From an uncultured Caulobacterales bacterium (GTDB lineage Bacteria; Pseudomonadota; Alphaproteobacteria; Caulobacterales; Maricaulaceae), in assembly GCA_937924355.1 (NCBI GenBank), contig CALDSY010000087.1, forward strand, positions 1 to 52,355: a DNA stretch of 52,355 nt. The letters run 5' to 3'. The translations under genes and the position numbers were made by a program. This document shows, in pieces, positions 19,299 to 32,338 of this stretch. How positions within the stretch are numbered: the stretch's first letter is position 1; each line of letters starts with the position of its first letter. Below the pieces are notes generated by a model. That model was not told the DNA's origin. It saw nothing but the letters and a program-made list of their open reading frames with translations, and did no database searches.

Positions 19299-20582
19299 AT
19301 GCGATCTTTTGGACACAAATATTTGGCGGATCAGACCGGCTCTACGTCGGTCATGTTTGCTATTGCCGTTCCTGCCATCTTGGGATCAGTCATATTCATG
19401 ACCGAAGTTGGTCTATGGCGCGCAAAAAAGGCAGACCTACAAGCGAGCGCGGACATGGCGGCATTGGCCGGTGCCATCGAGTATTCTAAAAACGAAAACA
19501 AAGCTCTGTCCAAGCGCTCCGCCTATGCAGACGCTAAAGACAATCATTTTGACCCCGGTCTTGGAAGTATAACGACGCATATTCCGCCAATCTCTGGGAA
19601 CTATACTAACAAAGAAGCGGTTCAGGTAACCATCAAACAAGAACTGCCGACCTTCCTGTCGAAAATGTTCCTAAAAAAACCTATGGAAGCAACGGTTCAG
19701 GCTGTTGCAAAAGTCTCCGGGGAAAGCGTGAAGGCTTGCGTCTTGACCTTGGCCCCAACAGGTACGGGAATTTCAGTCGGCGGGAGCGTTAATCTTGTCA
19801 CGCATGGGTGTGGCCTGCACTCCAATTCTACGTCCGAACCTGCATTTGATGTCTGGGGGGCCGTGGAAATTCGGGCAGCGTGCGCCTCATCGTCCGGCCA
19901 AACGCGGATTGGGGGCTCGAAACCAAAAATATTCTCCGATTGTCCGGAACCACTATCAAACAAAGCCCCGGTTATCGATCCCTATGCCGCTATTGATGTG
20001 CCACCAGGCATTGACCATGAGCCTTGCCAGTCGCCAACGACGACAGGCAACGGAAATAATCAGCAGATGAGCTTCCCTGATCCCGCCGGTGGCGTGGTCA
20101 AGATCTGTGACAGTAGCATAGATATTCGGGCGAACATCGAACTTGAACCGGGCACTTATGTTTTTGATGGAACTGAACTGGATTTTGGAAATAATGGCTT
20201 CATCGCAGGCGAGGATGTCACCCTTATATTTATGAATGATGGGGCGATCAATAATGTCAATGGCGGCAATGGCTTTGACATTTCGGCTCCGGATTCGGGC
20301 GATTATGCCGGTATTGCTATGTATGCCGACCGGAATACCATGGCGGGTGAGGAATGGAAGTTTGCAGGGAATTCAGACATGTCTATTCTAGGGGCATTAT
20401 ATTTGCCGACCATCGATCTGGAATATGCCGGAGGAGCCGGGACTAATGCTACGGCGTGTACCCAACTCGTCGCTTACCGCGTTGAATTTGTAGGAAATTC
20501 AGAGTTTCAGAATAATTGCGACCCGGTCGGTACAGAAGATATGTTTGGTCCCGGCGCATCACAGGTCGTTTTGGTGGAATAA
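19299..20582 (+). CDS. TadG-like pilus assembly protein, cassette 1
   Basis: 427 residues. A short basic N terminus leads to the prepilin-like membrane segment of TadG (TGSTSVMFAIAVPAILGSVIF), then DLQASADMAALAGA, the DUF2134-type start of the soluble region. The large C-terminal part is rich in Gly/Asn and ends in beta-strand repeats (LEPGTYVFDGTEL, GEDVTLIFMNDG, SGDYAGIAMY). About a dozen cysteines are aligned with the cassette-2 paralogue at 29997, including KACVL, GCGLHSNS and the last NNCDP. Probably anchored in the inner membrane and folded in the periplasm. It starts a three-gene unit, 2 bases before the next gene; no clear ribosome site. Confidence 0.82.
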   Translation: MRSFGHKYLADQTGSTSVMFAIAVPAILGSVIFMTEVGLWRAKKADLQASADMAALAGAIEYSKNENKALSKRSAYADAKDNHFDPGLGSITTHIPPISGNYTNKEAVQVTIKQELPTFLSKMFLKKPMEATVQAVAKVSGESVKACVLTLAPTGTGISVGGSVNLVTHGCGLHSNSTSEPAFDVWGAVEIRAACASSSGQTRIGGSKPKIFSDCPEPLSNKAPVIDPYAAIDVPPGIDHEPCQSPTTTGNGNNQQMSFPDPAGGVVKICDSSIDIRANIELEPGTYVFDGTELDFGNNGFIAGEDVTLIFMNDGAINNVNGGNGFDISAPDSGDYAGIAMYADRNTMAGEEWKFAGNSDMSILGALYLPTIDLEYAGGAGTNATACTQLVAYRVEFVGNSEFQNNCDPVGTEDMFGPGASQVVLVE

Positions 20583-20584
20583 TC

Positions 20585-21085
20585 ATGAAACGTCTTTTTC
20601 GAAAATATTGGACACAGAAGGACGGCGCCATTGCCGTTGAAACGGCCCTTGTAACGCCAATTCTGATCGCGATTTTATTACCGGCACTCGATGTGGGTTA
20701 TCAAATCTACACGATGCAAAAAATGAATAAGGCAACGGATAGTGGAATCGAATATGTGGTGAATGGGGGCCGTGATGAGGCAATTATCCGCCAAATCATC
20801 CAAGATTCATTTGGGGAACCGATCACATCCTCCAATTTGGAAATTACAGCTTATTGCGGATGTTTAGCACCGTTTGATGACAAGGATGACGATGGCACGA
20901 TCACTAATCCTCACGCGAGTGTTTATGTTAAAATGCAAACTCAACTTGCTGACGACATGTGCGCGGCGGTTTGTACTGACGGGGCCGATGCAAAGGAATT
21001 AGTGGAGGTTTCTTTTGATCACCTGGTCAGCGGTACCATTAGAGATAAACGAGTCAACTCAAGGCTTCAAACTCGGATCAAATAA
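20585..21085 (+). CDS. TadE-like pseudopilin with cysteine motif, cassette 1
   Basis: 166 residues. After a basic start, the segment KDGAIAVETALVTPILIAILL is a TadE-type pilin-like helix with the conserved Glu. The soluble region carries YCGC at about residue 97 and a later C-x3-C (MCAAVCTDG), which recur in the cassette-2 homologue. The family is processed by the TadV peptidase and localises to the inner membrane or periplasm. The ATG at 20585 follows tadG by 2 bases; a longer open frame back to 20516 overlaps tadG and is not needed. The stop overlaps the next gene (TAATG). Confidence 0.8.
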   Translation: MKRLFRKYWTQKDGAIAVETALVTPILIAILLPALDVGYQIYTMQKMNKATDSGIEYVVNGGRDEAIIRQIIQDSFGEPITSSNLEITAYCGCLAPFDDKDDDGTITNPHASVYVKMQTQLADDMCAAVCTDGADAKELVEVSFDHLVSGTIRDKRVNSRLQTRIK

Positions 21086-21504
21086 TGAGAAAACCCCACA
21101 CACATATCTGGGCGCGGTTTACTCAAGACGAGCACGGCGCAAGCGCGATCGAGGCCGCTATCTGTTTTCCGATCATCATTATGATGGCCTTTGGGATATT
21201 TCAGTACGGCATTTTTTACAACAACTCGACGGACTTGAACCACAAATTCAGAGACGCGTCCCGACAGGTGAAGTTCATGGATAATCCCGGCGGAGATATT
21301 CTAAAGTCACATTATCAACAGATATTGGGCGAATATTCAGAAGACGTGACTCTGGCTGTCCAAAAAACAGATCGATATGGCGAAAGCTTTGCGGAAGTTC
21401 ATATGACCTATTCATATACGATCGATATACCCTTGCTGGACAAATATCCGCTTACAACACAATACAAAAACCTGATCATGCTTTCGAGCGACCTGCCGGG
21501 ATGA
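21085..21504 (+). CDS. TadE-like pseudopilin, cassette 1 (second)
   Basis: 139 residues: basic N terminus, then HGASAIEAAICFPIIIMMAFG, a textbook TadE/TadF hydrophobic helix with the E after the Gly-Ala rich cleavage region, and a short soluble tail of about 90 residues without cysteine. It is coupled to the previous gene by a TAATG overlap. Its closest match in the window is the last gene of cassette 2. Transcription seems to end near a weak hairpin around 21535-21557. Confidence 0.8.
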   Translation: MRKPHTHIWARFTQDEHGASAIEAAICFPIIIMMAFGIFQYGIFYNNSTDLNHKFRDASRQVKFMDNPGGDILKSHYQQILGEYSEDVTLAVQKTDRYGESFAEVHMTYSYTIDIPLLDKYPLTTQYKNLIMLSSDLPG

Positions 21505-21520
21505 TTAAGTAATTCTTTAC
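21505..21520 (+). promoter_or_regulatory. Near-CtrA box TTAA-N7-TTTAC (first copy)
   Basis: TTAA, seven bases, TTTAC begins right after the TadE stop. It differs from the CtrA consensus TTAA-N7-TTAAC by one base. A second copy with the same halves occurs 51 bases downstream. Confidence 0.3.
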
Positions 21521-21555
21521 GGTTTTTATCGTGAAATTGCTCCGTTTTGCGGCAA

Positions 21556-21571
21556 TTAAGCATCCGTTTAC
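21556..21571 (+). promoter_or_regulatory. Near-CtrA box TTAA-N7-TTTAC (second copy)
   Basis: Same two halves and spacing as the copy at 21505, with an unrelated 7-base centre. It lies about 107 bases before the subtilisin start. Two GANTC sites (21601-21605 and 21607-21611) follow 30 bases later, one base apart. Confidence 0.35.
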
Positions 21572-21677
21572 TTTGTATCAAAAATAGCCGTTAACAGTAG
21601 GAATCGGATTCGATTGAAACCGATCATCTTTTGTGTCTTTGCCATCCTCGGGATTTAAAAATCAATGCGAGGGCAAC

Positions 21678-22811
21678 ATGAATTTCCGTACAAAATATAG
21701 TCTGTTGGGCGCGAGCTTTACAGCATTGATGCTGGCAGCATCCACACCAGCTTTAGCACAATCAAATGACTATGACGTCGTTCCGGATAGCTGGATTTTC
21801 GTCATGCAGGGTGATGTCAACACCATGTATCTGGACGGCGACGTCAAGAAAGCGATGAGCAAGGGCAAGGCCAAAGGTAACCTCAAACACGTTTATAAAA
21901 GCCGCGTGAAAGGCTTCTCTGTCGATGACATGAGCGCAAAAGATGCAAAGATTATGGCCGACACCATGGACGGCGTCGCCTACGTCGTACCTAATAGCTA
22001 TGTGCAGATCATGGGAACCAAGAATTTCTCCAGCACAGGTAAGCCAGCGATCGGAGAGCAAACAGTTCCCTATGGTGTCGCCCGCGTAAATGGCGGCCAA
22101 TATAAAGGCAATGGCATAGCTTGGGTCGTCGACACAGGCGTCGATGCTCGCCACCCCGACCTGAGGGTCCATAAAGGCAAAAGCAAATCGATGATCGACG
22201 AGTCTCGTGGTATGACGGATGGTCAAGGTCACGGCACGCATGTTGCCGGAATCATTGGTGCTAAAGACAATGGTACTGGCGTTTTGGGCGTTGCCCCAGG
22301 CGTGACCATCGCCAGTGTAAAAGTGCTGGATGATAATGGTAAAGGCACGGCCGATGATATCATTGCCGGTTTGGACTATGCGGCCTCCAGAGCCCGACGC
22401 GGTGACGTGATCAATTTGTCCCTTGGCGGCGGCTTTAACCAAGCTGTAAATGACGCCGTTCTGCGCGCCAGCGCTTCAGCCACAATCGTTGTTGCAGCTG
22501 GAAACTATCGTGGTGATGCCAGAAACTATTCTCCGGGCAGCGCAGAAGGCGATAATGTCGTGACGGTTTCAGCGATTGACGCCGATGACGTATTCAGCGC
22601 GAGTTCTAACTACGGAAACCCGCCGATCGACTGTGCCGCGCCGGGCGTAGGTATTCTCTCCACATTGCCGGGCAATAATTATGGCAGTTTCACAGGAACA
22701 TCCATGGCGGCGCCGCACGTTGCCGGCCTCGTTCTAAAGGGCAATATCAGCTTTGACGGTGTTGCAGCCAATGATCCAGACGGTAACAACGACCCGATCT
22801 GCGTATTTTAA
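21678..22811 (+). CDS. Secreted subtilisin-like serine protease (S8)
   Basis: 377 residues from the ATG at 21678, which has a GAGGG ribosome site; the open frame to 21633 has none. A Sec signal ends at about residue 28 (PALAQ). Residues 35-112 form an I9-type inhibitor prodomain (DSWIFVMQGDV...DDMSAKDAKIMADTMDGVAYVVPN). The catalytic triad is Asp152 (VVDTGVD), His185 (GHGTHVAG) and Ser342 (GTSMAAPHVAG), with oxyanion Asn276 (AAGN). The tail after the domain is only about 30 residues, so no sorting or repeat domain is attached. It lies 173 bases after the Tad cassette and may process its products; that is inference. Confidence 0.9.
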   Translation: MNFRTKYSLLGASFTALMLAASTPALAQSNDYDVVPDSWIFVMQGDVNTMYLDGDVKKAMSKGKAKGNLKHVYKSRVKGFSVDDMSAKDAKIMADTMDGVAYVVPNSYVQIMGTKNFSSTGKPAIGEQTVPYGVARVNGGQYKGNGIAWVVDTGVDARHPDLRVHKGKSKSMIDESRGMTDGQGHGTHVAGIIGAKDNGTGVLGVAPGVTIASVKVLDDNGKGTADDIIAGLDYAASRARRGDVINLSLGGGFNQAVNDAVLRASASATIVVAAGNYRGDARNYSPGSAEGDNVVTVSAIDADDVFSASSNYGNPPIDCAAPGVGILSTLPGNNYGSFTGTSMAAPHVAGLVLKGNISFDGVAANDPDGNNDPICVF

Positions 22812-22889
22812 CTTACCCCTCATGTCCTCTGTTGGACATTTGCTAGCGGTGTACCCAGGGTCTCACTCACCCAAACGCCGCGCCTAACT

Positions 22890-22919
22890 AACCCGCCGCC
22901 TAGTCGGCGGGTTTTTTTT
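22890..22919 (+). terminator. Rho-independent terminator of the subtilisin gene
   Basis: A 9-bp perfect stem (AACCCGCCG / CGGCGGGTT) with loop CCTAGT runs into eight T's. It closes the subtilisin transcript 80 bases after its stop and isolates it from the M16 peptidase gene. Confidence 0.92.
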
Positions 22920-22982
22920 GTCTTCATATTGCCGTAAAGACAGAATGCAATTATTGAGTCACAAAACTAAAGAGATCCAATT

Positions 22983-25841
22983 ATGCGTATGACACTCACC
23001 TCAAAGATTTTTTCTTCCGTTGTTCTCGCCGGAATTCTCTCATTAACCGGGTGCAAACAAACAACGTCTGACACAGGCAACACTGACAAGTCGAAGTCCA
23101 CAAAGACTGAACTCTCCGTCAGCTATGAAAAATTTACACTGGAGAACGGATTAGAGGTCGTTTTGCATGTGGACAGATCCGATCCCGTTGTCGCCATTGA
23201 TATTGCCGCACATGTGGGATCTTCTCGAGAAACTACCGGGCGAACCGGCTTCGCTCATTTATTCGAACACCTTTTATTTATGGACAGTGAAAATCTTGGT
23301 TACGGCGGGCTAGATTCTATGAACACCCGTATCGGCGGTGAAGGTACGAACGGATTTACGACCCATGATATGACCCAGTATTTTCAGGCTGTTCCTAAAG
23401 ATGCGCTGGAAAAAATAATCTGGGCCGAAGCTGATAAGCTTTGCTGTTTCATTTCAACTGTATCCCAGAATGTCATTGATAATGAAAAACAGGTTGTGAA
23501 AAACGAAAAGCGGCAAAGGGTCGATAACCAACCCTATGGCCATAATTTTTATATTATCAACAAGGCACTTTACCCGGAAAGCCACCCCTATAACTGGCAA
23601 GTGATCGGATCGCTTGTAGACCTTGACGCCGCATCCCTCAAGGATACGCAGGACTTTTACAAGAGATGGTATGCGCCAAATAATGTAACCGTCACTCTGT
23701 CTGGCGATTTCGATGTGGCCGAAGCCAAACGTCTGATGAAAAAATATTTCGGAGACATTCCAGCAGGTGATCCTATCGAAAAGCTTGAGCCTAAAATTGC
23801 CAAGCTTGAGGCCGATAAGAACCTCTTTTATGAGGACAATTTTGCAACAGTTCCGCAGCTTTCCATCATTTGGCCTACTGTTGAACAATATCACGCTGAT
23901 AGCTATGCGCTAAATATTCTGATGGATTATCTCACCAGTGGAAAAAAAGCGCCCTTGTCTCAGGTTTTGGTCGATGAAGAAAAACTGACGTCCAGTGTCA
24001 GCGCCTTCCACTACACCAAGGAAATCGCCGGTGAAGCCTATATATTCATCAATCCCAATGAAGGCGGAGACATTGACGGGCTGATGCCGGCCATCAATAC
24101 GGCCTTCTCTCGCTTCGAGGAAAACGGCATTCCGCAAGCGGACCTTGATCGCATTAAGGCTGGATTGGAAGTCCGTTTTTTCAATGATATGCAAAGTGCC
24201 CTAGGCAAAGCTATCGCGCTCGGCGAATACAATATGTTTACCGGCGATCCTGGTTTCATTGTCGAAGACATTAAACGCCTGCAGGCTGTTTCCACCGATG
24301 ATGTCATCCGAGTTTATAACAAGTACATCAAAGACCAACCTCGGCTTTACACTTCGGTTGTTCCCAAAGGACAGACGGAATTGGTTCTGGAAGGCGCTAC
24401 CCGGGCCGCCATCGTCGAAGAGAAAGTTGTCCCCGGCGAGGGAGCACCCGTCGATTTTGACCCAGCTAAACGCGTAATTGATAACCCTTCTGGGTTTGTC
24501 CGCCCGGAACCTGATTTCGGTGAAAGCTATAGTTTATCCTCCCCCAATGTTTGGCGAGGGACTTTGTCTAACGACATTGAAATTTATGGCATTTCCAGCG
24601 ACGAAACCCCGCTGGTCGAATTCTCCATCATGTTGGACGCGGGCAATTCTCGCGGCGATTATGCCAAGCCCGCTATACCCGACATGGTTTCTGCTATGAT
24701 GTCCAAAGGCACCGTAGACAAGACAACGGCGGAGCTTGAAGACGCCATCAAATCTCTTGGCTCATCCGTATCGGTATCGACCAGCACCAATGGCACCTAT
24801 GTGCGCGGCACAACTTTGGCCCGCAACTTTGATAAAACCATGGGTTTGGTTCAGGAAATGTTGATGGAGCCCCGCTGGGACGTTGAAGAATTCGACCTTC
24901 TAAAACGAAAAATGCTCAACGATATAGACCAGCGCGCAGCCAATCCCAACGCAATTGCCGCGCGAGAAATGGCCAAACTTCGTTACCCTGAAGGCCATAT
25001 CCTGCGCTATGCTTATACAGGCCCTAAAGACAAACTTGAGGCGGTCACGCTGGATGACCTCAAGGCCTTTTACAATAATTACTATACCCAGAATAACATG
25101 AAGGTCCGGATCGTTGGAGATATTGATTTAGGCGACGTCAAATCTGGTCTGGGAAAAATTGCAAAGGACTGGAACAAGCCAGCACCGGCAAAGGTCAATC
25201 TGGCGTTAGATAACCCGGTCGAGGCAACAAAAATCTACTTTTATGACGTACCGGGCGCCAAACAATCAATCCTTCGGTTCGAACGTCCTGCTTTAACAGC
25301 GCATGATGATGACTTTGCTCTAGCGGAAGCCATCAACTTCCCTTTGGGCGGAATCTACACATCAAAACTCATGACAGAGCTTAGGGTAAATAAGGGTTAC
25401 ACCTATGGCATTCGGTCCGGATTTAACGGCGATAAAAACCGAGGTACCTTCACCATTGGCTCCTCAGTTCGAACCAATGTCACCAAAGAGTCTATTGGCC
25501 TCATCAATCAAATTGTCACCAGCTACGGTCCTGATTTCTCAGACGAAGACCTGGAAACAATGAAGGAGGCGCTCCTGCGGGGGCAGGCCCTTAAAAATGA
25601 GACACTTGGCGACAAACTCGGCATGGTACAGGAAATCAGCTATTATGGTTTTCCCGATGACTACAAGGCAAGGAACGCGGACAAGGTAAAAAGTCTATCT
25701 CTGGAGAAAGTGAAATCGCTGGCGAGCGAACAGCTCCGCCCGAAGGCCATGCGGATCCTTGTTGTCGGCGACGCCGGGTCACAATTGGACGGATTAAAAA
25801 CACTGGGTTTCGGAGACCCGATTTTATTGGAAACGGACTAG
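22983..25841 (+). CDS. Two-domain M16 metallopeptidase lipoprotein
   Basis: 952 residues. The N terminus is a lipoprotein signal with the lipobox LTGC (Cys24), so the enzyme should be membrane-anchored facing the periplasm. The first M16 half carries the inverted zinc motif HLFEH (His92, Glu95, His96) and the distal Glu in NEKQVVKNEKRQ. The second half, from about residue 500, has the fold without the zinc site, as in pitrilysin-type and chloroplast-processing-like enzymes. It is large for bacterial secreted M16 proteins, which often come as separate subunits. A GAGTC site is 23 bases upstream. Substrate unknown. Confidence 0.92.
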   Translation: MRMTLTSKIFSSVVLAGILSLTGCKQTTSDTGNTDKSKSTKTELSVSYEKFTLENGLEVVLHVDRSDPVVAIDIAAHVGSSRETTGRTGFAHLFEHLLFMDSENLGYGGLDSMNTRIGGEGTNGFTTHDMTQYFQAVPKDALEKIIWAEADKLCCFISTVSQNVIDNEKQVVKNEKRQRVDNQPYGHNFYIINKALYPESHPYNWQVIGSLVDLDAASLKDTQDFYKRWYAPNNVTVTLSGDFDVAEAKRLMKKYFGDIPAGDPIEKLEPKIAKLEADKNLFYEDNFATVPQLSIIWPTVEQYHADSYALNILMDYLTSGKKAPLSQVLVDEEKLTSSVSAFHYTKEIAGEAYIFINPNEGGDIDGLMPAINTAFSRFEENGIPQADLDRIKAGLEVRFFNDMQSALGKAIALGEYNMFTGDPGFIVEDIKRLQAVSTDDVIRVYNKYIKDQPRLYTSVVPKGQTELVLEGATRAAIVEEKVVPGEGAPVDFDPAKRVIDNPSGFVRPEPDFGESYSLSSPNVWRGTLSNDIEIYGISSDETPLVEFSIMLDAGNSRGDYAKPAIPDMVSAMMSKGTVDKTTAELEDAIKSLGSSVSVSTSTNGTYVRGTTLARNFDKTMGLVQEMLMEPRWDVEEFDLLKRKMLNDIDQRAANPNAIAAREMAKLRYPEGHILRYAYTGPKDKLEAVTLDDLKAFYNNYYTQNNMKVRIVGDIDLGDVKSGLGKIAKDWNKPAPAKVNLALDNPVEATKIYFYDVPGAKQSILRFERPALTAHDDDFALAEAINFPLGGIYTSKLMTELRVNKGYTYGIRSGFNGDKNRGTFTIGSSVRTNVTKESIGLINQIVTSYGPDFSDEDLETMKEALLRGQALKNETLGDKLGMVQEISYYGFPDDYKARNADKVKSLSLEKVKSLASEQLRPKAMRILVVGDAGSQLDGLKTLGFGDPILLETD

Positions 25842-25911
25842 TTCCATCATAAGGCCTTTCGTTTATCAGCCGCCGGACGGCCCTCTATCCATCATTTATC
25901 AGGATGAGGAT

Positions 25912-26502
25912 GTGGTGCTCGTTGACAAACCGAGCGGCCTTCTAAGTGTTCCGGGGAAATCTCCGGAACATGCGGATTGCCTGGAAAGAAGGATGCGCGA
26001 TCTGTTTCCGGAAATCCGGCTGGTGCATCGCCTTGATCACCCGACCTCAGGCCTTATGATTTTCGCCAGAAATGCCCAAGCGCAGCGACATCTTGGTCTG
26101 CAGTTTGAGAAACGCCAACTCAAAAAATCCTACATTGCCCGTGTTTCTGGTCGAGTCGAGGGGCACTCTGGTCACATCAACCTACCTCTGATTTGTGACT
26201 GGCCTAATCGGCCGTTGCAGATGGTCTGTTTTGACAATGGCAAATCGGCCCAAACCGATTGGGAAGTTCTAGAAAGAAAAGCCCATGCGACCCGGCTTTG
26301 CCTTTACCCCAAAACCGGGAGATCACATCAATTACGGGTCCACTGCCTTGCTATCGGTCATCCTATTTTGGGTGATAGCTTTTATGGCGGCGAACGAAAT
26401 CAAGCCGCTGCGGAACGATTACAATTGCACGCTGCGACCCTGGAATTCAGGCATCCAAACGGCGGAGTCTGGAGCCGGCATTCATCCCCCTGCCCGTTTT
26501 AA
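25912..26502 (+). CDS. rluA: RluA-type pseudouridine synthase with missing standard start
   Basis: Isomerises uridine in 23S rRNA and tRNA. The sequence runs parallel to E. coli RluA: KPSGLLSVPG, HRLD with catalytic Asp42, INLPLICDWPNRP, GKSAQT, TGRSHQLRVH, and GHPILGDSFY. From the GTG at 25912 it has 196 residues and lacks the family's N-terminal strand. The open frame upstream (25846-25911) encodes a matching start (YQPPDGPLSIIYQDED), but no ATG, GTG or TTG exists there, only ATC/ATA at 25846/25849. Either a rare start is used or the initiator was lost. Its 3' end overlaps hdaA by 21 bases. Confidence 0.78.
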   Translation: MVLVDKPSGLLSVPGKSPEHADCLERRMRDLFPEIRLVHRLDHPTSGLMIFARNAQAQRHLGLQFEKRQLKKSYIARVSGRVEGHSGHINLPLICDWPNRPLQMVCFDNGKSAQTDWEVLERKAHATRLCLYPKTGRSHQLRVHCLAIGHPILGDSFYGGERNQAAAERLQLHAATLEFRHPNGGVWSRHSSPCPF

Positions 26503-27090
26503 GAACGCCGCAACAAATTTCAGGGTCATATCTCGCTTTTCACGGCTAGCTGCCAAATCAAGGTCATGGATCAATCTTACTAAAGCCGGAATGGAACGGT
26601 CATACCGGCCAATAATATGGCTCACAATATCAGCTTTGACCGCCCGCCCTTTGTCCTCGAACAATTTGCGTATGATTGGCTCGAGGATATCATTGTCCGG
26701 CTCTTCCAATGATAGTTTGGGAATATAATTTAACCGAGACCGCAGGTCTGGGAGCTTGATGTCCCATTCATCAGGATGCCGATGATCAGCCAGTAACAAA
26801 CCCCGCAGCTCGCCGTTGAGTGCCTGATTGGTAGTCGCGAAGAGCGAAGCTTCGTCCATCTGGGACGCATCATCAAGAAAGATAACATCATCATTCACAG
26901 ATCGCCAGGCTGCGCCTAGGTGGGTTTTTCCACTCCCCTTAGGGCCAAAAAGAATAAAGATAGGTGCAGGCCAATCAGGAAAGGCGAGAATAGACTTAAG
27001 CGCAATGCGGTTGCTCTCACCTTCGAAAAAATTCTCGAATGTGAAGACAGGGCTGGGCGACAAATCTAGCGGATATTGATCCGACATCAT
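26482..27090 (-). CDS. hdaA: HdaA, DnaA-like regulator of replication initiation
   Basis: 202 residues from the ATG at 27090 (a second ATG is at 27087; upstream frame overlaps the previous gene). It has a DnaA-type AAA+ core: FENFFEGESN box, Walker A FGPKGSGKTHL, and Walker B-like FLDDASQMDE, but no DNA-binding domain IV. In Caulobacter HdaA stimulates hydrolysis of ATP-DnaA on the beta clamp. The short N terminus reads MMSDQYPLDLS, and a clamp-binding motif is plausible there (QYPLDL). It directly follows the DUF2066 gene. Confidence 0.87.
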   Translation of the reverse strand: MMSDQYPLDLSPSPVFTFENFFEGESNRIALKSILAFPDWPAPIFILFGPKGSGKTHLGAAWRSVNDDVIFLDDASQMDEASLFATTNQALNGELRGLLLADHRHPDEWDIKLPDLRSRLNYIPKLSLEEPDNDILEPIIRKLFEDKGRAVKADIVSHIIGRYDRSIPALVRLIHDLDLAASREKRDMTLKFVAAFLKRAGG

Positions 27091-27097
27091 GCTAAAA

Positions 27098-28141
27098 TCA
27101 GTAACGACCCTTGCGGAACAGGACGGTTCCAATTTGCGGGTCCTGACGCAGTTCCACGCCCTTGTAAGATAATTCGTTTCTTAGACGTTCCATATCTCCG
27201 CCATAGGTCAGACTCATCAGCGCGCCATCTTTGGAAAGCGCATCGAGACGGGCCCCCTGGATCTGCGCCGAATTATTGATCACATTTTGCAGCCAGAGCC
27301 AATCATTGTGAGAGCGGTATAGAACAGAAATATTCGTCGTGACGGCATTGGCCGACAGCGACGCGTTTGAATTTTTCCACTCGTCTTCCAGACGGGAAAT
27401 AACTTGCCAGGCCGCATCAGGATAATCAGCGCCTGAGATTGTTCCTAGATCACGTTTTATGCCCGAATTGACCTCGACATCTTCGATGCGAACATTAATC
27501 GCGCCGGGCCCCGGGACGGCACTGGCGACGAGAATTCGCCGCATGCCAAAAAAGTCTCCCAGGCGTTTCAACGCCGTCATATCACCAGCTGAAACTTGGG
27601 AAGCATTAATCAGGCTGTCATTCCCCCGGGACGGAATGATGACTTCAACAGGTGTCAGGGAGTTTTGAAACGCCGGAGAACTCCAGATAGCTTGCCACTC
27701 ATTTTCACTCCATAAAGACGATCCGGAAAGCACCGGAACGACCAATCGCTTCTCTGCCTGACTAGACATCATGGTCATGCCTTTGGAAGCCAAATATTGT
27801 TGCACGCCAGATTGCGAGAACCCGACCGCGATCTCACCCAAATAACGCTGGGTAGATCTTTTTTCATTGGAGATTTCCAAAGACCGGATCATCGGCAGGA
27901 TGACTTCGGGCTTTATGGTGTCAAATGACTGACCCGCGCGCTGACTCGGTAAGGTCAGACGATTGAGCAATATTTGCGCGGCTCTGACCTGGCCTTCTGA
28001 TACAGCGATATTTTGCGCTTCGATAGCATTACTGCCTGTCGCATCGACCTGGACGCCAGACACCATAAAGGGGTCACCGGCAAAAGCCATATGCACATAA
28101 GCCAGACAGGCGAACAGGATTATAGAAATTCTCTTTAACAT
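27098..28141 (-). CDS. DUF2066 domain-containing secreted protein
   Basis: 347 residues from the ATG at 28141, chosen because it begins a typical Sec signal (MLKRISIILFACLAYVHM, cleavage near AFAG); the open frame reaches 28189. The body (DPFMVSGVQVDATGSNAIEAQNIAVSEGQVRAAQ) fits the DUF2066 family, found beside hdaA in alphaproteobacteria and next to purM in gammaproteobacteria. Both neighbours, hdaA and purM, are present here. Function is unknown; location is periplasmic. It is divergent from purM with a 133-base gap. Confidence 0.83.
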   Translation of the reverse strand: MLKRISIILFACLAYVHMAFAGDPFMVSGVQVDATGSNAIEAQNIAVSEGQVRAAQILLNRLTLPSQRAGQSFDTIKPEVILPMIRSLEISNEKRSTQRYLGEIAVGFSQSGVQQYLASKGMTMMSSQAEKRLVVPVLSGSSLWSENEWQAIWSSPAFQNSLTPVEVIIPSRGNDSLINASQVSAGDMTALKRLGDFFGMRRILVASAVPGPGAINVRIEDVEVNSGIKRDLGTISGADYPDAAWQVISRLEDEWKNSNASLSANAVTTNISVLYRSHNDWLWLQNVINNSAQIQGARLDALSKDGALMSLTYGGDMERLRNELSYKGVELRQDPQIGTVLFRKGRY

Positions 28142-28274
28142 GGTGGGATAGTTAGACGGATTTGTCCTCGAATAAAAGAGGAATTGCATGGGTATTACAG
28201 TATTTGAGATTTGGGGCTTGCCTGTATAGCTATTTTAGGATTGTAAACGTCTGCAAGTAAACACAGAGCGACTC

Positions 28275-29306
28275 GTGACCGACAAATCCAAGAAACAAGG
28301 CCTGACCTATGCCGATGCAGGCGTCAGCATCGATGCTGGCGATGCATTAATCGACCGGATCAAACCCCTCGCGAAAATGACAGCGCGCCCCGGCGCCGAT
28401 GTCGCATTAGGCGGTTTTGGCGGTGCCTTTGACCTGAAGGCCGCCGGTTTTAAAGACCCCGTCCTCGTTTCCGGTACGGACGGTGTGGGAACGAAACTCC
28501 GCATCGCAATCGACACAGGGGTGCTAAACACGGTTGGTATTGATCTCGTCGCCATGTGCGTGAATGATATTTTGGCTCAAGGTGCGGAGCCCCTCTTCTT
28601 CCTTGACTATTTTGCGACGGGCCATCTCGACGTGGCGAAAGCTGAGCAGGTGATCTCCGGCATTGCCAAAGGATGCCAACTATCCGCATGCGCCCTAATT
28701 GGCGGCGAAACTGCGGAAATGCCGGGCATGTACGAAGGCGAAGACTTTGATCTGGCCGGTTTTGTGGTCGGCGCGGCGGAACGAGGTCAACTGCTTCCGC
28801 GCAAGTCCCACATGAAAGCTGGAGACCCTCTCATTGGGATCAGCTCTTCTGGCCCCCATTCAAACGGATATTCCCTCATTCGTAAAGTCGTTAGTATTTC
28901 TGGCTTGAGCTGGACGGATCCTTCACCCTTTTCTGACAATCAATCTTTGGCAGAGGCCCTATTGGAGCCGACCAAAATTTACGTCACACAATTGCTACCA
29001 CTAATCAGACAAGGCCTGATAAAGGGCCTCGCTCATATTACGGGCGGTGGTCTGACGGAAAACACACCCCGTATGCTCCCCGAGCATTTGACGCCCGAAT
29101 ATGATTTTACAAGCTGGGAGCGGCCGGCCGTGTTTCACTGGCTTCAGGAAACCGGTGGTATTGCAGAAGCCGAAATGCAACGGGCCTTTAACTGCGGCAT
29201 TGGCATGGTCGTAACATGCGATCCTGACAATACAGCAGACATTCTGAAGGCCCTCGAAAAGTCAGGTGAAAGCGCCAAGGTCATTGGCTATTTAGCTGAA
29301 AAATGA
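28275..29306 (+). CDS. purM: Phosphoribosylformylglycinamidine cyclo-ligase (AIR synthetase)
   Basis: Closes the imidazole ring in purine synthesis. 343 residues from a GTG start at 28275 that has an AGAG ribosome site. Motifs: GLTYADAGVSIDAGD, the glycine-rich GGFGGAFDLKAAGFKDPVLVSGTDGVGTK (residues 45-80), GGETAEMPGMY and HITGGGLTENTPRMLP. It is the ATP-binding homologue of PurL. The stop overlaps purN by four bases (ATGA). Confidence 0.96.
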   Translation: MTDKSKKQGLTYADAGVSIDAGDALIDRIKPLAKMTARPGADVALGGFGGAFDLKAAGFKDPVLVSGTDGVGTKLRIAIDTGVLNTVGIDLVAMCVNDILAQGAEPLFFLDYFATGHLDVAKAEQVISGIAKGCQLSACALIGGETAEMPGMYEGEDFDLAGFVVGAAERGQLLPRKSHMKAGDPLIGISSSGPHSNGYSLIRKVVSISGLSWTDPSPFSDNQSLAEALLEPTKIYVTQLLPLIRQGLIKGLAHITGGGLTENTPRMLPEHLTPEYDFTSWERPAVFHWLQETGGIAEAEMQRAFNCGIGMVVTCDPDNTADILKALEKSGESAKVIGYLAEK

Positions 29307-29878
29307 GAAAAGTCCCGACAGCCATTCTGATTTCGGGACGCGGCTCGAATATGCTGGCCTTGGCCAAGGCTGCACAAAGTCCGGACTATCCCTGTCAAAT
29401 CGTTATGGTTGCATCAAATGTACCCGAGGCGGAAGGTCTGCAAAGAGCGGCGGATCTGGGCATTCCCGTGCAGGCGCTGGATCACACACCTTTTGAAGAC
29501 CGCGAAGCATTTGATCAAATTTTGCATCATAAATTGCAAGAAAGCGGCGCGGAGCTGATTTGCTGTGCCGGGTTCATGCGCATTTTAACGCCTTGGTTTG
29601 TTGACCAGTGGAAAAATAAAATAATTAACATTCACCCGTCTCTTTTGCCAAAATATAAGGGGCTGAATACGCATCAGCGGGCGCTGGACGCTGGCGATCG
29701 GTTCCACGGATGCTCCGTCCACTTTGTGACCGCTGATCTTGATAGCGGTGATGTTATTTTACAGAAAAAAATCAAGGTTACGCCCCGCGACACCGCCGAA
29801 ACCCTCGCCCAAAAAGTCCTGAAAATAGAACATCCGCTTTATGTTGAAGCCCTGCGGAAAGTCGCTGAAAGCAGATGA
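29303..29878 (+). CDS. purN: Phosphoribosylglycinamide formyltransferase
   Basis: Transfers a formyl group from 10-formyl-THF to GAR. 191 residues, with ISGRGSNMLAL at the start, catalytic Asn-His-Asp set in INIHPSLLPKYKGLNTH and the HFVTADLDSGDVI strand. It overlaps purM and ends 118 bases before the second Tad cassette. Confidence 0.96.
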   Translation: MRKVPTAILISGRGSNMLALAKAAQSPDYPCQIVMVASNVPEAEGLQRAADLGIPVQALDHTPFEDREAFDQILHHKLQESGAELICCAGFMRILTPWFVDQWKNKIINIHPSLLPKYKGLNTHQRALDAGDRFHGCSVHFVTADLDSGDVILQKKIKVTPRDTAETLAQKVLKIEHPLYVEALRKVAESR

Positions 29879-29996
29879 TACCCCAAATACACATTTGATT
29901 AAGCATAGATTTTCATATCTCCCCAACCAAGTCTGTTGAACGAAATTTATTAAATTCCCAGTACAAGCATCACTGAAGTAATGCGTGGGATTGGGC

Positions 29997-31253
29997 ATGC
30001 TAAAACGGTATTTAAAAGATGAAGAAGGTTCAACGGCGGCAATATTTGCGCTGGCGATACCTATGTTCATAGGCGGTATCGCCTTGGCCGTCGAGCTGGG
30101 GCACTGGCACCAAAATAAGTCTAAACTCCAAGAATTAGCTGATTCAACAGCTTTTGCTGCAGCGCAAGAAATAAAAATTCTACGTGAAGACGCGGAATTC
30201 GAATACGCAGGCATGGGTCATGCTTATGAAAACGGCTTCGACTATAATACTGGCGATGTAGTCGTCATAAGCCCACCCGTATCTGGGCGCTTCGCCGGGC
30301 GTGACGATGCTGTCGAAGTCGAACTGAATCAACTCCAGAAGACATATTTTTCTCGTTATTTCGGCAATAAAACCTTTGATATGGAAACTCGGGCGACCGC
30401 TATCGTTTTAGAAGGGCGCCCGGTATGTGTTCTTGCGACCAATCCAACAGCGCCCGCCGCGATCGATATGGGTGGTAACGCCAGTATCAGTATGGAAAAC
30501 TGCGCATTGCATTCTAATTCTTCAGCGTCAAATTCTGTGCTTATTGGCAATAATACGACGATCGAAGCTGAATGTTTGAGTTCAGCCGGTGGTATCGATG
30601 CCACAGGGACGTTGACAATGGCATGTGAAGATCAAACCGATCCATTTTCGGGTCGAACTCCGGACCCATTCCGAAATACAGTTATTGCAGATGACGTGAG
30701 TTCTCTGCCTTGCGGTAGCGCGACGAGACAAGGACAAAATCAGTTTCTATCAATGGAACCCGGCCAGACGGTCCGACGAATTTGTCAAAATGTCGGCACA
30801 AATGGCCTAATCGAGTTTTTAGATCCAGGAACCTATTATTTTGATGGAGTTCAATTGGAAACCGACGGAAACAACTCGTTGATTTTTGGGCGGGATGTAA
30901 CTTTGGTGTTTTTGAATGGCGGAACTTTATTGGGGGCGAATGCAGGAAACATAAACCTCACTCCCCAAACGAGTGGTGATTATGCGGGCATGGCCATGTT
31001 TTTTGACCCGGAAACAACAACTCAAAACAATTTAACGATCAACGGAAATGCGAATACTTTGATCGAGGGCGTTATCTATGCGCCTTCTTTGGACATTCAA
31101 ATTAACGGCGGCGCAAATGTGAGCAGCCGGTGTACCTTGGTCGTTGGTAATACTGTCGATATCCGCGGTAATGCCGGATTTTCAAATTCAGACTGCGAAG
31201 CTTTGGGCATCGAACCGATGACCAGCCTGAGCGGCGTTCTTTTAATCGAGTAG
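29997..31253 (+). CDS. TadG-like pilus assembly protein, cassette 2
   Basis: 418 residues from the ATG at 29997, which has GGGA 6 bases upstream; the GTG at 29985 has no such site. The pilin-like segment STAAIFALAIPMFIGGIALAV and ELADSTAFAAAQ mark TadG. The C-terminal part is paralogous to cassette 1: DPGTYYFDG, GRDVTLVFLNGG, SGDYAGMAMFFDP, and a run of G-N rich strands ending VVGNTVDIRGNAGF. Cysteines align with cassette 1, including VCVLA and NCALHSNS. It starts a three-gene unit ending in a strong terminator. Confidence 0.82.
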   Translation: MLKRYLKDEEGSTAAIFALAIPMFIGGIALAVELGHWHQNKSKLQELADSTAFAAAQEIKILREDAEFEYAGMGHAYENGFDYNTGDVVVISPPVSGRFAGRDDAVEVELNQLQKTYFSRYFGNKTFDMETRATAIVLEGRPVCVLATNPTAPAAIDMGGNASISMENCALHSNSSASNSVLIGNNTTIEAECLSSAGGIDATGTLTMACEDQTDPFSGRTPDPFRNTVIADDVSSLPCGSATRQGQNQFLSMEPGQTVRRICQNVGTNGLIEFLDPGTYYFDGVQLETDGNNSLIFGRDVTLVFLNGGTLLGANAGNINLTPQTSGDYAGMAMFFDPETTTQNNLTINGNANTLIEGVIYAPSLDIQINGGANVSSRCTLVVGNTVDIRGNAGFSNSDCEALGIEPMTSLSGVLLIE

Positions 31254-31261
31254 AGATTGCA

Positions 31262-31921
31262 ATGAAAAAATTTCTAAATACATTCAGACGTAACGAGGAC
31301 GGGGTAGTTTCCCTTGAGTTTGCTTTGATCGCGCCAATGATGATTTTTGGTACTTTGTTCGCGATAAATTTGGGACACCAAGTCAATAAACATCAGAAAG
31401 TTGGCGCCGCGTTAACCGCAGGGAGCAACTATCTACAAGATTATTTGATGGAAAATGCCGTAGAAGACCTTCGGCCGAATTATGATAGCAAGACAGAAAC
31501 TGTTGCAGAGGCAAATCTGGTCAATATGATCAAAAGGGTCGTCCAATCAGCCTATGGTGAAGACCTAAAATTTGAAGAAATAGCCGTTGACACATATTGC
31601 GGTTGTCCCAATCCGGCTGGACTAAACCAAGGTAGTGGCACAAATGAACCGCCGGATGATGGTTCTTTTGAAATGGCTATTGAGCAACCTGTGGTTGATG
31701 ACAGCGTCGGCGGGTTTGACTTCAAGGACCGCACTAAAGATTTTTATTCCAGGACAAATATGTCAATCTGGAGAAAGGGCGAACTCTGTGCGTTTGATTG
31801 TCCCGATCCCGTTGGTGGTCGTGCCCGGGTCATCATGGAACTTCATGTCCATCACCGCATGTATGATCTTTTCGGTAAAGAAACAGTCGTAAAAAAGAAT
31901 TTGAAAACTCGGGTTCGGTAG
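31262..31921 (+). CDS. TadE-like pseudopilin with cysteine motif, cassette 2
   Basis: 219 residues: basic start, then EDGVVSLEFALIAPMMIFGTLF, a TadE hydrophobic helix. The soluble domain carries YCGC near residue 121 and a later C-x3-C (LCAFDCPDP), exactly as in the cassette-1 counterpart at 20585, plus about 50 extra residues between them rich in Gly, Asp and Glu. Both proteins end with a LKTRV/LQTRI strand. The stop is directly followed by the next gene's TTG. Confidence 0.8.
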   Translation: MKKFLNTFRRNEDGVVSLEFALIAPMMIFGTLFAINLGHQVNKHQKVGAALTAGSNYLQDYLMENAVEDLRPNYDSKTETVAEANLVNMIKRVVQSAYGEDLKFEEIAVDTYCGCPNPAGLNQGSGTNEPPDDGSFEMAIEQPVVDDSVGGFDFKDRTKDFYSRTNMSIWRKGELCAFDCPDPVGGRARVIMELHVHHRMYDLFGKETVVKKNLKTRVR

Positions 31922-32338
31922 TTGAAACTTTTCTCCAAATATCTTTGTCGTTATAGGGATGATAAAAATGGTGCAACGGCTGTTGAAGCCGCGATCGTTT
32001 TTCCTATTCTTATTGCGGTTCTATTCGCCGTATTTGGTATCGGCTCCTATCTTTATGGAACACATCAGGCGCAAAGAACCGTTGAAGAAACGGCCCGAAT
32101 GGCGCGAATCTTGGACCAACCTAGCCAACAAGATTTGTCAGCTTTATTGAGCCAAAACATGAAAAATGCGATGTTTGGAACTTACGAACCCAAAGTAATG
32201 ATCGTCAATCAGTTTGACGGGGACTATGCGGAATTGGCGATTACCTATAACTTTAGTTTTGATTTTCCGATTCTAGATTTGATCGACATGCAGTCGGTTT
32301 CAAAAACGCAGGTCAAATTACGGTTCATTCCAATATAA
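31922..32338 (+). CDS. TadE-like pseudopilin, cassette 2 (second), TTG start
   Basis: 138 residues from a TTG that abuts the previous stop codon; no nearby ATG fits. The N terminus has the basic stretch KLFSKYLCRYRDD, followed by the TadE helix KNGATAVEAAIVFPILIAVLFA. The short soluble tail lacks the YCGC motif. It matches the third gene of cassette 1 in length and layout. A bidirectional terminator follows at once. Confidence 0.78.
   Translation: MKLFSKYLCRYRDDKNGATAVEAAIVFPILIAVLFAVFGIGSYLYGTHQAQRTVEETARMARILDQPSQQDLSALLSQNMKNAMFGTYEPKVMIVNQFDGDYAELAITYNFSFDFPILDLIDMQSVSKTQVKLRFIPI

Follow-up and report, generated by a model that had tools for sequence, protein, structure and literature searches.

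The 52,355-nucleotide window analysed here, contig CALDSY010000087.1 (C87) of assembly GCA_937924355.1, carries two three-gene cassettes of Tad (tight adherence) pilin-type genes; with a probability of about 0.72, these are a pair of dispersed orphan alternative tip cassettes for the resident Tad (type IVc) pili. The source is a 2.30 Mb metagenome-assembled genome (G000), 82% complete. The nearest named record for the first cassette is that of Hellea sp. MAG-118 (TadG1, 89%; records of the window's own genome may have been left out), which places the host among the relatives of Hellea, a prosthecate alphaproteobacterium of marine habitats. The tip reading draws on the Pfam domains of the six proteins, two Tad systems resident in the same genome, co-occurrence with a Tad motor in 38 of 41 genomes, empty sites in a relative without Tad genes, the residue at position +5 of the mature proteins, a modelled architecture like that of Thermus ComZ, published precedents, and the uneven divergence of one domain between the two copies.

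Cassette 1 (19299-21504) consists of TadG1 (19299..20582, 427 residues), E1a (20585..21085, 166 residues), and E2a (21085..21504, 139 residues), the last having one base in common with the E1a stop codon. Cassette 2 (29997-32338) repeats this gene order with TadG2 (29997..31253, 418 residues), E1b (31262..31921, 219 residues), and E2b (31922..32338, 138 residues), which starts with TTG directly after the E1b stop. All six genes lie on the + strand with intact frames, and all six products pass the curated cut-off of Pfam Tad (PF13400) or TadE (PF07811); the places, order, and open frames given in a preliminary description of this DNA are thereby confirmed, and its suggestion that the products are minor pilins is well supported. 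The shared gene lengths it reported hold for the TadG genes and the third genes and less well for the middle genes (E1a and E1b), and the gap it put at 10 kb is in fact 8.5 kb (21505-29996). Genes within each cassette are separated by 0-8 bases or overlap by one, a tight spacing such as would be found in an operon.

The two cassettes are related to one another well beyond what generic pilin similarity provides. In BLASTP comparisons, TadG1 and TadG2 share 34% identity over 426 residues (225 bits), E1a and E1b share 21% over 219 residues (56.6 bits), and E2a and E2b share 27% over 128 residues (63.5 bits). The corresponding scores against proteins of the core Tad loci reach at most 44.3 bits for TadG and 33.5 bits for TadE-type proteins, confined to the N-terminal ~50-90 residues. 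With TadG2 as the query, the TadG encoded on contig C212 scored 87.5 bits, nearer than the core-locus proteins, as against 221.9 bits for TadG1. Judged from these scores, the cassettes are true paralogs, as had been proposed.

Both middle genes carry the YCGC motif followed by C-x3-C that was noted at the outset (cysteines 91, 93, 126, and 130 in E1a; 113, 115, 176, and 180 in E1b), and these four cysteines are invariant in 20/20 middle genes from 14 genomes of the order. The two cysteine pairs stand close together in the six rows from outside Hellea and are separated by a stretch of variable length in the 14 Hellea rows; this stretch measures 60 residues in E1b (window positions 31598-31801), 32 in E1a, and only a handful in the six non-Hellea rows. 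An E1 profile matched 84 of 289 genomes of the class at E ≤ 1e-6. Among the 29 best-scoring of these loci, a sample that does not give a class-wide share, 14 encode a C-x-C ... C-x2-4-C arrangement, 11 differ in cysteine number or spacing, and four have no pilin-like frame at the center by pattern. A 19-row alignment including Rhodospirillales and Phenylobacterium keeps one of the four cysteines invariant and two in at least 90% of rows, so the pattern loosens with distance. The order-wide invariance and the 14 class loci rule out the four-cysteine pattern as a hallmark of this pair, to which the preliminary description had assigned it; across the aligned sequences, it appears instead to mark a TadE subtype that is present in other orders too. 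The eight conserved cysteines of TadG had been overlooked: seven fall in invariant columns across 21/21 sequences, and the eighth shifts by one or two columns.

Position +5 of the mature proteins separates the two families. It is Glu in 20/20 E1 proteins (an invariant column, Glu being present in both E1a and E1b) and in 0/21 TadG proteins, TadG1 included; tip-most pseudopilins such as GspK generally lack Glu5. One of the 20 E1 rows has Ala in place of Gly in the G/xxxxE motif, another begins at an early start, and by eye the motif is also present in both E2 proteins of the window.

Structural models were computed for single chains of TadG1 and E1a using AlphaFold2, the former run with 20 relatives; both show a pilin-like fold in which a long helix precedes the strands. 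The TadG1 model (predicted local distance difference test score, pLDDT, 83.7; predicted template modeling score, pTM, 0.64) has a helix at residues 14-65, strands at 89-94, 107-115, and 130-150, short strands in series, and a final strand at 416-425. This order of elements places a predicted beta-solenoid (about residues 143-411, bases 19725-20531) between the penultimate and last strands of the pilin sheet, as in proteins of the ComZ type. Structural alignment using VIA to 2pcr_D and 9mmi_B (model residues 43-427, 85-86 residues aligned) is consistent with the last strand folding together with the pilin base. A Foldseek search of the PDB returned a single match at E ≤ 0.001, Thermus ComZ (6qvi; E 5.9e-4, probability 0.97), with a template modeling score (TM-score) of only 0.27, so that the whole chains do not superpose. 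VIA returned 14 rows at Z 11.7-13.1, thirteen of them ice-binding or antifreeze entries and the other ComZ (Z 12.6, root-mean-square deviation 3.8, 219 residues aligned). TadG1 is thus predicted to combine a pilin base with a beta-solenoid; by these models its likeness to ComZ is one of architecture only, and we do not class it as a ComZ. For TadG2, the solenoid region (~30414-31208) is placed by alignment to TadG1 only. The E1a model consists of the long helix and four strands (pLDDT 84.4, pTM 0.69). A sequence search of solved structures with E1a returned only designed TIM barrels at E 0.004-0.6, which were taken as chance.

The machinery that could use such pilins is present in the same genome. 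Flp, TadE, and CpaF proteins were identified by family searches, and the other Tad and Cpa genes were named by sequence likeness and order. System A, on contig C83, comprises two TadE-type genes, a short CpaC-like gene, flp, cpaA-cpaF, tadB, tadC, and tadD, and no TadG gene was seen in this stretch. System B is split: contig C21 carries cpaB, cpaC, a TadG gene, two TadE-type genes (the second below the Pfam cut-off), and cpaE, and the end of contig C223 carries cpaE again with cpaF, tadB, tadC, and tadD. A near-identical cpaE stretch lies at the ends of C21 (L019 85-921) and C223 (L017 6589-7101), so these contigs probably join and system B is probably a single locus. A 500-bit ATPase on C223 is assumed to be GspE. 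Contig C87 has no core genes, and neither flp nor any of tadA-C was seen in the flanking frames, so that the cassettes stand outside a tad locus, the usual though not the defining place for such genes. The earlier statement that no Tad motor is present therefore applies to the window neighborhood and not to the genome.

Four Flp matches were found in the genome, three of them over the Pfam cut-off. Those beyond the core locus (C226:16655, C48:3162, and C229:4671, the last below cut-off) are on contigs without a T2SSE match, and may possibly represent alternative major or minor pilins. A search of the genome for further cassette copies, recommended in the preliminary description, identified additional TadG-type genes that had escaped notice there. 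PF13400 matches eight places, six of them among the matches listed. Outside the cassettes, TadG-type genes occur on C21 (that of system B), on C133 (with similar C-terminal blocks), and on C212 (over the Pfam cut-off), and contigs C186 and C67 encode TadG-type proteins with von Willebrand factor type A (vWA) stretches, the one on C67 below the VWA cut-off. Across G000-G009, all of the same genus, PF13400 counts are 8, 19, 11, 14, 9, 0, 10, 9, 9, and 10, and they range from 0 to 10 in the other 31 genomes of the order. The 19 TadG N-terminal domain places in G001 compare with only two CpaF-type ATPases in that genome.

Among the 41 genomes of the order, TadE (PF07811), TadG (PF13400), and an ATPase in the CpaF score band (205-233 bits, a range guided by the two CpaF genes in the Tad loci of G000) were each found in 38, and the same three genomes (G005, G036, and G039) lack all three. 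The probability that the same three genomes would be missing by chance is 9e-5, relatedness ignored. G005 and G036 contain an ATPase of ~490-504 bits, taken as GspE-type, G036 has another of 140 bits, and G039 has none. In G005, the genome of this genus without Tad genes, ndk follows ~0.1 kb after purN and no TadG-type frame occurs in 8 kb around radA; these are the two sites occupied by cassettes in its relatives. As G005 is 90% complete, its lack of the cassettes and of Tad is likely, with some uncertainty.

The solenoids of the two paralogs diverge differently between species. Identities were compared among five Hellea genomes with both cassettes; nine of the ten pairs, which are not independent, exclude the near-identical G000-G002. 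In these nine, solenoid identity is 65-72% for TadG1 and 39-57% for TadG2, as against 53-63% and 58-63%, respectively, for the pilin part, and the TadG1 solenoid is more conserved than the TadG1 pilin part in 10/10 genome pairs. A contrast limited to the solenoid would be expected of two receptors under different selection. Faster evolution of cassette 2 as a general statement is rejected, given the about equal divergence of the pilin parts and a reversal in the pair G000-G002.

Cassette locations and the TadG phylogeny indicate how the pair arose. In a tree of 33 TadG proteins (midpoint-rooted, with two long branches elsewhere unsure), seven type-1 and eight type-2 Hellea sequences form two sister clades (support 100/99 each, and 100/96 for their grouping), which places a single duplication ahead of the divergence of the sampled Hellea genomes and agrees with the duplication originally proposed. 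Dispersal, the other half of that proposal, is only partly right: G004 keeps both cassettes in the same order, ~8.5 kb apart, with the same intervening genes, which marks the spacing as an old, inherited feature. At least one of the two cassettes is retained in seven further Hellea genomes, and a cassette is also on record for Glycocaulis albus, a culturable relative. Cassette 2 lies between purN and ndk in G000, G004, G006, and G008, and beside ndk at a contig end in G002; in G001 it lies after purN and a pair of TadG genes that match vWA weakly (ndk was not seen on the other side), and G003 has two type 2 cassettes at the purN-ndk site. PurN was not obtained from G007. Both the purN-ndk and the radA sites of G009 hold a solo TadG with a weak vWA match and no solenoid cassette. 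The weak-vWA proteins (L170 2977-4377 and 11705-13087 in G009; L093 4674-6086 and 6417-7829 in G001) match at E 0.0006-0.0024, below the Pfam cut-off. These placements suggest inheritance in place after the duplication, followed by local gains and losses or exchanges. A further route to head variation is seen in G022 (L099 4419-7026), where tandem TadG genes precede a single E1-E2 pair.

The second site is that of cassette 1, adjoined in the window by a secreted subtilase (21633-22811; Pfam S8, E 2e-41). Cassette 1 and subtilase stand beside radA in G000, G002, G004, and G006, and next to each other in G007, on a contig from which radA is absent; in G001, the cassette is elsewhere, without subtilase, and radA is at a contig end. 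In G008, radA lies 0.1 kb from the M16 gene, and in G003, no TadG was found in the 4 kb before radA. Relatives of the subtilase (69-89%) accompany cassette 1 in G002, G004, G006, and G007, and none closer than 45% was found in G003, G005, G008, or G009, in which cassette 1 was not found. G001 has cassette 1, yet no subtilase closer than 39%. On these distributions, linkage and shared descent would explain the association as well as function does. The other genes between the cassettes are presumably an M16 peptidase, an RluA-type enzyme, a DnaA-like protein, a DUF2066-type protein, purM, and purN.

If the cassettes encode alternative tips, each would be an operon for one complete three-pilin tip complex, served by core machines encoded elsewhere in the genome. 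A CpaA-type prepilin peptidase, as in core locus A, may mature E1 and E2 at the G/xxxxE motif they carry. TadG, E1, and E2 would then join via their N-terminal helices and prime Flp polymerization on the CpaF/TadB/TadC engine, as the work on Kil and Caulobacter pilins suggests. TadG, with no Glu at +5 and, in the TadG1 model, a bulky solenoid between pilin strands, would occupy the very end of the pilus, its solenoid directed outward as a receptor or adhesin. The conserved cysteines of these proteins probably lock the exposed parts by disulfides, and the old duplication may have given rise to two alternative tips with different targets.

Several other explanations bear on the same data. Because no flp or tadA gene is nearby, the preliminary description considered an independent disulfide-stabilized surface structure without a Tad motor, and in all 14 genomes whose cassette was opened, any CpaF-type match is indeed on a different contig or at least 148 kb away (contigs of such assembled genomes being short). 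However, two Tad systems reside in the genome, TadE, TadG, and CpaF-type proteins are present or absent together in 41/41 genomes, both sites are empty in G005, and the G/xxxxE motifs call for a prepilin peptidase; with Tad core genes in the genome and TadE and TadG missing wherever a CpaF-type match is missing, we reject a Tad-independent structure as very unlikely. A simpler role within the Tad framework would make the cassettes the plain initiation set of system A, with a head that has no specific ligand: its locus runs from flp to tadC, with two TadE-type genes, tadD, and no TadG seen, and Caulobacter CpaL is likewise an orphan (PMC12607857; the papers cited by PMC number, here and below, are drawn on in part). 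But two cassettes with E1 and E2 proteins of their own would duplicate what the two TadE-type genes of system A provide, other TadG genes exist in the genome, including the two with a vWA stretch as in CpaL, and the greater conservation of the TadG1 solenoid over its pilin part speaks for a specific job; an initiation set is thus unlikely, though it retains some weight. The greater divergence of the TadG2 solenoid in the nine more distant pairs could also reflect a decaying duplicate, which we consider extremely improbable given six intact frames, the invariant TadG and E1 cysteine columns, and the retention of one or both cassettes in the seven other Hellea genomes.

Two further alternatives accept a displayed head and differ as to its ligand. 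One or both tips may serve as the DNA receptor of an uptake pilus driven by Tad, a role like that of ComZ in Thermus, since the closest architecture is that of a DNA binder (PMC6561018) and Flp-dependent transformation has been reported in Actinobacteria (PMC4322843); yet ice-binding proteins, which account for 13 of the 14 top VIA rows, have this solenoid fold too, so that it tells no ligand, and a DNA receptor seems rather improbable. The same rows, which align 175-191 residues of ice-binding proteins, would also suit ice-binding or polysaccharide-binding heads. Neither TadG has an ice-binding Pfam match at E ≤ 0.1, however, the relatives include Magnetospirillum and Parvularcula, and ComZ, though similarly alike in fold, does not conserve the ice-binding positions (PMC6561018); binding of this kind is accordingly a highly improbable function.

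Several observations weigh against the preferred assignment of the cassettes to alternative Tad tips. A profile search of TadG against all PDB sequences gave no match at E ≤ 1, ComZ included, and among the structures listed by VIA for the E1a model none was a specific pilin match (the best, at Z 7.7, was an unrelated enzyme); the failure of the solenoid fold to tell a ligand counts here as well. The score band separating CpaF from other ATPases was chosen after the scores had been seen, and the pattern of 38 genomes with and three without covers all TadE and TadG genes, those of the core loci included, the cassette having been opened in 14 of the 38. Some relatives with Tad have no TadG2 match at E ≤ 0.001 (e.g., G016 and G019). 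The divergence contrast is reversed in the closest pair, G000-G002, at 95% for TadG2 and 89% for TadG1, with the solenoid at 95% and 91%, respectively. Finally, as the source is an incomplete metagenome-assembled genome, binning errors are possible.

A bolder extension of the tip reading is possible, if doubtful: the purN-ndk and radA sites of Hellea may be fixed addresses housing alternative Tad tips that are exchanged between species, in which case the solenoid tips would be ComZ-like receptors able to redirect a shared pilus, TadG2 being the faster to change. It draws on the solenoid cassettes present in most of the genomes, the vWA-like TadG genes in another, the occurrence of both in one, and the presence of neither in the Tad-less relative. 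If the tip reading itself is true, exchangeable Tad tips are not peculiar to predatory Myxococcus and would represent ordinary pilus retargeting in aquatic Alphaproteobacteria, and Tad pili, like the competence pili of Thermus, can bear a solenoid at the tip. Given the paired cassettes, the vacant sites in a relative lacking Tad, and a difference in divergence confined to the solenoid, the idea lends itself to testing by simple deletions.

The closest functional precedent is found in Myxococcus, where four paralogous three-pilin kilLMN clusters encode interchangeable tips: any one suffices for pili, none yields no pili, and prey species differ in which tips they require (PMC12075869). The cassettes resemble these Kil tips in that each cluster encodes three TadE/F/G-like pilins, a genome holds more than one cluster, and the large pilin has an extra domain, here presumably exposed as in Kil, and many cysteines (predicted in disulfides in Kil); a single shared Tad pilus would be a further point in common (PMC12075869). 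Several paralogous three-pilin clusters per genome, the mark of the Kil type, are found here as two cassettes at 34%, 21%, and 27% identity. They differ in that the extra domain of KilN4 is described in the part of that paper drawn on as having no structural homologue in the PDB, whereas the head here resembles the ComZ solenoid; likewise, the non-predator examples given there are tadEFG sets inside tad-encoding regions, and the tip1-4 genes are restricted to Myxococcota (PMC12075869). Unlike Myxococcus, the present host is not known to be a predator.

Among Alphaproteobacteria, Bradyrhizobium diazoefficiens has an orphan tadGEF set (cluster 4) away from two full Tad clusters (PMC10934763; PMC12918737), and its loss impairs root adhesion, as told in PMC10934763. 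This tadG-tadE-tadF set, apart from two Tad systems, parallels the arrangement described here, although Bradyrhizobium has one set rather than two and its canonical form is often fragmented in that genus. In Caulobacter crescentus, the orphan gene product CpaL is a candidate for the tip and has a large vWA head (PMC12607857; PMC13170226). It is pilin-like, its gene lies apart from the main pilus cluster, and it is predicted to be at the tip, as TadG1 would be; in contrast to CpaL, which was modeled with CpaJ and CpaK, the head here is a predicted solenoid and each cassette has its own two TadE-type pilins (PMC12607857).

Thermus thermophilus ComZ, which binds DNA, has been argued to be a tip pilin because of its large insertion (PMC6561018). 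It shares with TadG1 a large beta-solenoid between the last two strands, an ice-binding protein as closest fold, and a neighboring minor pilin partner (PilA2 in the case of ComZ), but no sequence similarity to the cassette TadG proteins was detected. PMC13234629, in the part drawn on, mentions ComZ as an example, without TadG. A literature search, which did not cover subscription papers or preprints, found neither a TadG with a ComZ-like solenoid nor such cassettes in Hellea. Published work thus already covers TadG-type genes and sets in orphan positions, genomes with several sets, and placement at the tip; new here, as far as found, are a TadG with a predicted ComZ-like solenoid and the occurrence of such cassettes in Hellea.

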